Shown here piece by piece: positions 6,066 to 61,732 of a DNA stretch of 64,000 nt; position 1 is the first letter of the stretch, and the number at the start of each line of letters is the position of its first letter. The position numbers and the translations under genes are program-made. A model generated the notes under the pieces. The model was not told the origin of the DNA. It did not search any database and saw nothing but the letters and a program-made list of their open reading frames with translations. Origin of the DNA: Halorubrum sp. 2020YC2 (GTDB taxonomy: Archaea; Halobacteriota; Halobacteria; Halobacteriales; Haloferacaceae); the NCBI RefSeq assembly GCF_018623055.1, contig NZ_CP076019.1, positions 2,976,001 through 3,040,000 of the forward strand. Reading direction: 5' to 3'.

Positions 6066-6468
6066 ATTTATAAGTAATCGTCAACGGATCGACGACGAAC
6101 CACTCCAAAGCCCCAGTCGCGAGGACAGCGCACGCTCGCTGTCGCCCGAAAATCGGAGATTTTCGGGATGACGAGAGAGCTTCGCTCTCTCGAACCACGC
6201 TCCTCGTCGCTCGTTTCACTCGCTCCTGCGGTGCTTACGTCGTCATCAGAACGCAAAGCGTTCTGATTGGCTCACGAGAGCTTCGCTCTCGTGAACGCCT
6301 GCGCTGTCCTCGCGACTGCCCCTTTGAGTCCCGCCCCGCACAGCACCTCACGCCTCCCCAGCCTCGTCAGCCGCCTCCGCTTCGCTCCGGCGACTGGCTC
6401 CCTCGCGCGTGCTGGTTCGCGGCCTACCGGCCGCTCGCAGGCACGCGCCGACCGCCGATTTATAAGTA
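6066..6468 (+). repeat. Structured intergenic element, copy 1 (with extra hairpins)
   Basis: This fills most of the 494-base space between two convergent genes. TATA-like TTTATAA at 6067 is followed after 38 nt by CCAAAGCCCCAG (6105). A perfect 19-bp stem comes next: 6114-6132 CAGTCGCGAGGACAGCGCA pairs with 6300-6318. Then CCCCTTTGAG (6319-6328), CCTCACGCCTCCCCAGCCTCG, and a terminal hairpin with arms GCGCGTGC (6405-6412) and GCACGCGC (6441-6448) plus inner arms GCGGCC and GGCCGC. ATTTATAAGTA stands at both ends (6066-6076 and 6458-6468). The loop of the long stem carries four additional perfect hairpins. No protein gene is credible here. Confidence 0.85.
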
Positions 6469-27925: not shown

Positions 27926-28231
27926 TTTATAAATCGCTGCTACCCGGTCGACAGACGACACCTCCAAAGCCCCAGCCGCGAGGACGGCGCACGCTCGTTG
28001 CGCTCCTCGCTCGTTCGCTCCGCTCACTCGCTGCGGTGCTTACGTCGTCTGCGCCGTCCTCGTGGCTGCCCCTTTGAGTCCCGCCCCGCTCCGCACAGCA
28101 CCGCAGCCTCACGCCTCCCCAGCCTCGTCGGCCGGCCTCCGCTTCGCTCCGGCCGCCCGACTCCCTCGCGCGTGCTCCTCGCGCCCGGCGGGCGCTCGGA
28201 GGCACGCGCCACCGCATCGTTCTTTATAAGC
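27926..28231 (+). repeat. Structured intergenic element, copy 2
   Basis: This occupies the 441-base space 27876-28316 between convergent genes. TTTATAA at 27926 precedes CCAAAGCCCCAG (27964) by 38 nt. The long stem is CAGCCGCGAGGACGGCGCA (27973-27991) with 28050-28068, paired throughout with one G-T wobble. CCCCTTTGAG and CCTCACGCCTCCCCAGCCTCG follow. The terminal hairpin has arms GCGCGTGC (28168-28175) and GCACGCGC (28202-28209), with TCC/GGA and GCGCCC/GGGCGC inside. TTTATAA recurs at 28223. This is the simplest copy and the best reference for the family. No gene is credible in the gap. Confidence 0.85.
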
Positions 28232-55422: not shown

Positions 55423-55493
55423 GGCCCGACTGCGGCCGCGGTGCGCGTAAGGGTTGCTCTTCGGCGGCGACACGGCCCGATCAATCAACTTCG

Positions 55494-55763
55494 GCGCGTG
55501 CCGACGAGCGCCCGCAGGGCGCGAGTCGCACGCGCGAGGGACGCCGCGAGCGGAGCGAGCGGCGAGGCTGGGGAGGCGTGAGGTGCGGGGCGGTGCCGTG
55601 CGGGGTGGGACTCAAAGGGGCAGTCGCGAGGCGGGCGCAGGCGACACAAGCACCGCAACGAGTGAGCACAGCGAACGAGTGAGGAGCGCAGCGAGCGTGC
55701 GCCCGCCTCGCAGCTGGGGCTTTGGAGATGTTCGCCGCTGGTCCACAGTCAGCCGTTTTTAAG
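55494..55763 (-). repeat. Structured intergenic element, copy 3 (inverted)
   Basis: This lies in the 518-base space 55423-55940. Read on the minus strand: TATA-like CTTAAAA starts at 55763 and CCAAAG at 55725 (38 nt). The long stem is CAGCTGCGAGGCGGGCGCA (55716-55698) with 55639-55621, paired apart from one mismatch and one wobble. The terminal hairpin (55535-55494) has arms GCGCGTGC/GCACGCGC, GAC/GTC and GCGCCC/GGGCGC. No TTTATAA stands at the far end. The remaining 55764-55940 is the leader of the folate gene, with one 7-bp hairpin (55799-55820) and no clear TATA. Confidence 0.85.
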
Positions 55764-61453: not shown

Positions 61454-61732
61454 CTTATAATTACTCGGGTGTGAATCGCGGGAAAACGCTTCCAAAGCCC
61501 CAGCCACTCGCTTATAAACAGCTGATGGCGGTTCGACGGTGTACACCTCTAAAGCCCCCGCCTCGCGACTGCCCCTTTGAGTCCCGCCCCGCACGGCGAC
61601 CGCACCTCACGCCTCCCAGCCTCGTCGGCCTCCCTCCGCTTCGCTCCGGTCGGCCGACCCCAGCGAGAATCGAAGATTCTCTGGCAGCCGGCGGCAGAGC
61701 CGCCGGCGACGCCACCGCAGTTTTATTTATAA
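61454..61732 (+). repeat. Structured intergenic element, copy 4 (composite, truncated)
   Basis: This fills most of the 383-base space 61365-61747 between convergent genes. It has two left ends: CTTATAA at 61454 with CCAAAGCCCCAGCC at 61492, and CTTATAA at 61511 with CTAAAG at 61549, each spaced 38 nt. The second joins directly to the right half (CGCCTCGCGACTGCCCCTTTG), so the left stem arm and loop are deleted. CCTCACGCCTCCC-AGCCTCG and a GTCGGCC/GGCCGAC stem follow. The usual terminal hairpin is replaced by two others: 61665-61681 (7-bp stem) and 61687-61707 (9-bp stem, arms GCCGGCGGC/GCCGCCGGC). TTTATAA stands at 61726. No gene here. Confidence 0.8.

Follow-up and report, generated by a model that had tools for sequence, protein, structure and literature searches.

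Dispersed non-coding repeats of haloarchaeal chromosomes with a conserved, strand-specific fold

Introduction

Bacterial REP/REPIN repeats, with REP units of 20-50 nt, are paired with RAYT (Y1) transposases. Among the haloarchaea, the PATEs of Haloquadratum are too short to encode a transposase and show no terminal inverted repeats or target duplications. They carry palindromes near their ends and frequent small palindromic inserts and are tied to the ends of IS605-type transposons (PMC3119063). The class I intergenic repeats of halovirus HF2, which are found in Halorubrum viruses, are 56-58 bp long, contain a TATA box and have been shown to be promoters (PMC8707807). Pneumococcal BOX elements are modular intergenic repeats with a variable number of one short module.

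Here, we analyzed a window of 64,000 nt, i.e. the whole stretch of DNA under study, from the 3.06 Mb chromosome of a Halorubrum strain. It contains four copies of a repeat that we assign to a family of structured, non-coding, dispersed repeats found throughout the haloarchaea and extended in Halorubrum to about 260 nt. The element resembles REP/REPIN repeats in its many intergenic, palindromic chromosomal copies with a strand-specific fold, in being non-autonomous and vertically maintained, and in the inverted doublets with linkers of 25-32 nt that occur in other families, not in the Halorubrum form. It differs from them in size (a core of 119 nt and a body of about 260 nt versus the much shorter REP unit), in its apical tandem-G•A domain and extended 260-nt form in Halorubrum, and in having no consistent resident Y1 transposase. 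Because a resident Y1 transposase is not consistently present, the unit size does not agree and, with regard to PATEs, no link of domain I to IS605 ends was found, we propose that the element works like these systems without claiming it as a member. With PATEs it shares its haloarchaeal host range, a length too short for a transposase gene, near-terminal palindromes and palindromic inserts; it differs from PATEs in that no domain I turned up in the loci searched around Y1 genes and in the conservation of its fold between families. The likeness to BOX elements lies in a modular, intergenic organization with a variable number of a short module, whereas organism and sequence are unrelated and the module of our element holds a TATA-like box plus the first ~20 nt of the element. 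The HF2 class I repeats differ in being viral and in lacking a structured body behind them, and the body of the element is unmatched in phage records.

Results

Organization of the element in the window

The features of the element and its copies are collected in Table 1. The ends of the element body were set from alignments of 43 and 109 copies and are not base-exact. A preliminary description, made from the sequence alone, had placed the repeat at 27973-28209; this span held in part, as it misses the first ~15 nt, the last bases and the flanking arrays.

Table 1. Features of the repeat and its copies in the 64,000-nt window
Feature	Position	Folded strand	Evidence or remark
Whole element body (copy 2)	27958..28217	-	minus strand is the folded strand
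Domain I (stem I and apical domain)	27965..28082	-	119-nt core common to haloarchaeal families; model R1 123.3 bits, E 6e-24; supported by covariation
Apical hairpin with tandem G•A steps and GNA triloop	28000..28039	-	pairs covary
G-rich conserved linker (GGGGAGG, GGGACTCAAAGGGG)	28066..28126	-	column conservation
Hairpin II, variable in sequence and length	28127..28161	-	pairs 171-203 and 173-201 covary
Hairpin III (terminal hairpin of the preliminary description)	28168..28209	-	covarying pairs 216-247, 219-243 to 221-241, 225-237 to 228-234
Second full copy (copy 3)	55486..55731	+	R1 120.2 bits at 55607-55724
Copy with palindromic inserts in domain I (copy 1)	6094..6455	-	R1 55.3 bits at 6106-6332
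Decayed fourth copy	61490..61720 (approximate)	-	R1 35.1 bits at 61493-61585
TATA-like box TTTATAAAT, upstream on the plus strand		27926..27934		within a repeating 51-66 bp unit, of which this copy has one
TTTATAA box beyond hairpin III	28223..28229		recurrent motif

When folded as RNA, the minus strand of copy 2 reached -140.3 kcal/mol and reproduced the structure supported by covariation, with a GCGAAGC tip on hairpin II. In the G-rich linker, columns 155-169 and 120-128 are mostly 94-100% conserved, with invariant columns in alignment A1. The minus-strand G-tracts GGGG, GGG, GGGG and GGGG of the linker and of the internal loop of stem I are strictly conserved; it is conceivable, on the grounds of conservation only, that they form a G-quadruplex. 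In copy 1, palindromic inserts occupy 6140-6300 in the apical domain and the pairing of stem I is preserved. In the decayed copy, stem I and hairpin III are mostly gone. One short palindromic insert (AGCGAGAATCGAAGATTCTCTGGCAGCCGGCG...CGCCGGCGAC) was seen at the identical place inside three different copies of the element (61660-61710 of the window, near 353-568 in the copy at locus L017 and near 1834-1881 in that at locus L044). We take it to be another palindromic repeat of smaller size, which either inserts into the element or moves along with it.

Covariation supports a conserved fold

The preliminary description had also inferred selection for folding from paired differences between the stems of copies 1 to 3. 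Every quoted difference is present: GGACAGCGC/GCGCTGTCC in the long stem and GCGGCC/GGCCGC in the hairpin of copy 1; GGACGGCGC/GCGCCGTCC, TCC/GGA and GCGCCC/GGGCGC in copy 2; and GGCGGGCGC/GCGCCCGCC, GAC/GTC and GCGCCC/GGGCGC in copy 3, read from 55731 to 55486 on the minus strand. By themselves, three copies are merely suggestive, and we therefore aligned and tested 109 copies from the source genome and other Halorubrum genomes. The alignment was made by sequence only, without use of structure. Covariation was measured by a G-test with average-product correction against a null of 60 alignments that were simulated along the tree of the copies themselves, with column composition and the number of changes retained; this null is our own approximation of R-scape.

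In this test 68 column pairs were significant at E<=0.05, and the 12 strongest were all predicted base pairs. Predicted pairs accounted for 27 of the 68, where 41 predicted pairs vary on both sides; by our reading of the list, the remaining significant pairs sit within the same helices as neighbors or alternative registers. Across families, 19 of the 29 significant pairs of the 119-nt core were predicted pairs. With the structure of the core fixed, 94.7% of cells were paired compared to 73.5% in shuffles and 32-45% with slid partners, and 339 cells were changed on both sides compared to 101 in shuffles. None of 500 shuffles attained any of these measures. The fixed structure came from the same alignment, which biases the percentage paired upward. 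Between species, same-site copies had 113 changed pairs that were fully compensated and 72 that were not.

The claim of selection for folding thus held and is strongly supported, with significant covariation present once many copies are aligned. We conclude that the minus strand is selected for a specific fold, composed of a long stem I, a tandem-G•A apical hairpin, a G-rich linker and hairpins II and III, and that the fold of the core is maintained across haloarchaeal families that share little stem sequence.

The minus strand carries the fold

The folding strand had to be corrected: it is the minus strand and not the printed plus strand. On the minus strand, GA lies opposite GA at two sites within stems in 99 and 106 of the 109 copies, an internal loop of GGG opposite GGG is 99-100% conserved, and a GNA triloop is present in 86 of 100 copies. 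Both C(GNA)G loops and tandem sheared G•A pairs are stable motifs, the latter when set in C-GA-G, whereas the complementary T•C tandems are not. The minus strand of the core has 114 G•T cells versus 61 A•C cells, and in hairpin III of this strand G•T is also clearly above A•C. Folding energy was lower on the minus than on the plus strand in all 20 copies compared. With RNA parameters, the covarying apical pairs had a mean probability of 0.76 on the minus versus 0.23 on the plus strand; the corresponding values with DNA parameters, which perhaps under-credit G•A tandems, were 0.10 and 0.04. We assign the fold to the minus strand because of the G•A tandems, the GNA triloops, the excess of G•T over A•C and the lower folding energy. 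A plus-strand fold was rejected, as it is weaker and lacks the covarying apical structure. The folding energetics favor RNA and the positions of the promoter-like boxes do not, so that RNA and single-stranded DNA, both put forward in the preliminary description, remain compatible with the data.

Copy number and taxonomic range

Allowing one mismatch at most, the core motif GRCTGCCCCTTTGAGTCCCR occurs 133 times on the source chromosome versus none for the reversed pattern, so that there are at least 133 copies on 3.06 Mb. The 5' motif, which is also tandemly repeated, occurs 230 times versus three for the reversed pattern. A search of the source genome yielded at least 40 full or nearly full places with 79-100% identity.

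The element was matched in all 34 Halorubrum genomes sampled, with 6 to 162 core motifs per genome in the eleven that were counted. One Halorubrum genome of two contigs (G020) holds only ~6-10 copies as opposed to up to 162 core motifs elsewhere, and offers a natural low-copy case for finding the drivers of copy number. R1, a covariance model of domain I, had matches in 84 of the 116 Halobacteriales genomes, spread over 33 of 45 genera (E<=1e-4); outside the Halobacteriales, 66 genomes of the phylum were sampled without any match (E<=1e-3). The extended form with G-rich linker and hairpins occurs in Halorubrum and some relatives. In many other families domain I is solitary or forms inverted doublets, typically 25-32 nt apart.

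Copies are almost wholly restricted to the main chromosome. For six Halorubrum genomes in which secondary replicons account for 3 to 26% of the sequence, all listed matches fell on the largest contig. One of them, G029, which we take to be H. lacusprofundi, a genetically tractable carrier of the element, has contigs of 2,735,295, 525,943 and 431,338 bases; its secondary replicons C1 (525,943) and C3 (431,338) had no listed matches despite making up about a quarter of the genome. The element body had no match in phage records, the core motif was absent from the viral contigs searched, and partial matches were found in three plasmids only. On these grounds an origin from viruses or plasmids was rejected.

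Genomic placement and turnover

Copies are intergenic, and a site that is occupied in one species may be empty in another. None of 153 copies overlapped a called gene, the gene calls being from our own simple codon model. Convergent gene pairs hold 51 of 111 elements compared to 103 of 563 element-free gaps (OR 3.8, p 4e-9), and in tandem gaps the two orientations occurred 40 and 33 times, i.e. without clear preference. No constant partner gene was found beside the copies; given the diversity of neighbors, the idea of such a gene was rejected.

Species differ in whether the element is present in a gap flanked on one side by a DUF6276-like gene, the neighbor of an ATP synthase D-like gene, and on the other by a convergent gene for a membrane protein (genes named from our reading of the translations). 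Where the element is present this gap measures 441-691 bp, where a remnant is left 229 bp, and where the element is missing 1-103 bp; the pattern needs 6-7 changes on a weakly resolved gene tree. Same-site copies between species have a mean identity of 82% and copies within the source genome a median of 79%. Therefore either copies are rapidly exchanged for others or their sequences evolve fast under the constraint of pairing.

Flanking units and TATA-like boxes

Many copies are preceded on the plus strand by one to six tandem units of 51, 54, 57, 63 or 66 bp, each with a TATA-like box (or a TAC-containing variant) and, ~35 bp later, the element start. TTATAAA stands at a fixed position ~37 bp before CCAAAG in many copies. 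On the other side, a TTTATAA motif lies 10-18 bp past the element in many of 103 copies, often ~12 bp beyond hairpin III. If the upstream boxes act as promoters, they would initiate a plus-strand RNA near the edge of the element, antisense to the folded strand, which argues against a simple minus-strand RNA gene. The idea that the flanking boxes are a target-site duplication was rejected, since the left and right boxes of one copy differ by eye.

The unit lengths are all multiples of three, as are 59 of 61 spacings (examples are L010 1858-2142, L019 1866-2088 and L025 1430-1582). We have no explanation for this, and a small number of independent events could account for it. No open frame is common to all 23 distinct tandem units, the best being shared by 15, and coding was rejected.

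Search for a transposase and for known families

Of 33 Halorubrum genomes with the element, 7 lack a Y1 transposase (PF01797), among them G016, G019 and G027 with 68-100 core motifs. Domain I, as modeled by R1, was not found in 12 loci around the best Y1 genes; hairpins II and III and TnpB-only loci were outside this search. With no domain I in these 12 loci and Y1 missing from element-rich genomes, a Y1/IS605 origin was rejected as far as domain I is concerned. Inspection by eye of the flanks of 43 copies, whose exact ends are not fixed, revealed no terminal inverted repeats or target duplication. The terminal inverted repeats of MITEs were likewise not visible in the aligned ends, and no systematic comparison with all insertion sequences stands behind this statement. 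Rfam gave no match in the window at gathering score and, at E up to 10, only a chance match of 10.4 bits over the element; a known RNA family was thus rejected. A search of the open-access literature, core motif included, found no description of the element.

Discussion

We favor the view that the element is a REP/REPIN-like, non-autonomous mobile repeat whose single-strand fold is read by an unidentified factor, a reading that we regard as just as likely to fail as to hold; both mobility and factor are inferred. The single-stranded fold, as replication-exposed DNA or as RNA, would be the recognition signal, a factor supplied in trans would recognize it and copy or insert the element into intergenic sites, and the fold would be kept because only foldable copies spread. 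Covariation, strand-specific features, copy number and presence/absence turnover support this view, as do the absence of gene overlap, the lack of a constant neighbor, the finding that same-site copies between species are barely closer than paralogs, and the inverted doublets. Against it stands that no between-strain insertion, target duplication or partner enzyme was found, conspecific strains not having been compared, and that Y1 transposases do not fit as the factor. Furthermore, secondary replicons are without the element and phages and plasmids nearly so, which is unusual for a freely mobile element.

Alternatively, the copies could be non-coding RNAs of the minus strand used by the host, or RNA domains in the 3' regions of transcripts, with the fold being kept because the RNA binds protein or protects or ends transcripts. 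In the absence of expression data this remains a possibility. It is favored by the prediction of the covarying apical pairs with RNA and not DNA parameters, by the tolerance of G•U-type pairs above A•C on the minus strand, by the strong enrichment between convergent genes and by the restriction to the chromosome. However, copies in tandem gaps have no orientation preference relative to their neighbors, the upstream promoter-like boxes point along the plus strand, the box on the opposite side is so near that a minus-strand transcript would not include an intact hairpin III, and the element is frequently absent at orthologous sites. A double-stranded or cruciform DNA site between genes, which organizes the chromosome or insulates transcription by blocking read-through between convergent genes or by marking the main chromosome, would agree with the convergent-gene enrichment and with the confinement to the largest contig in six genomes. 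We consider it unlikely: such a site should be strand-neutral, yet the G•T versus A•C bias, the G•A tandems and the folding are not, over half of the copies lie outside convergent gaps, and in many species the genes converge with a tight gap that lacks the element.

Finally, there could be no selection for folding at all if the arms were kept alike by template-switch palindrome correction or by gene conversion between copies. Template-switch correction is known for quasi-palindromes, and same-site copies between species are barely closer than paralogs, so that inter-copy conversion is plausible. However, palindrome correction should erase mismatches, yet GA/GA and GGG/GGG are ~90-100% fixed next to variable pairs; mismatches and loop residues stay fixed and the pairs beside them run through C-G, G-C and T-A. 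The core fold is moreover retained across families with little common stem sequence. Because internal stem mismatches stay fixed while neighboring pairs change freely, we regard this explanation as very improbable.

A bolder reading, which we offer as a possibility only, is that the element represents a large structured RNA of a new archaeal class, transcribed from the minus strand and forming a tandem-G•A rod. Its conserved G-tracts could conceivably meet in a quadruplex in the potassium-rich haloarchaeal cytoplasm, again judged from conservation only. In this reading a ribonucleoprotein would both serve the host and seed the chromosomal copies of itself, and families would differ in having solitary, doublet or extended forms.

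If our interpretation is right, most of the haloarchaeal genera tested harbor a structured element that has apparently gone undescribed, and its copies (133 x 260 nt) take up roughly 1% of the source Halorubrum chromosome. The covariance model provides an annotation handle on intergenic sequence that is currently blank, and as the carrier that we take to be H. lacusprofundi is genetically tractable, the question of RNA versus single-stranded DNA is testable. The element would be the archaeal equivalent of REP elements, only with a much larger fold, and an overlooked class of folded elements seems to exist.
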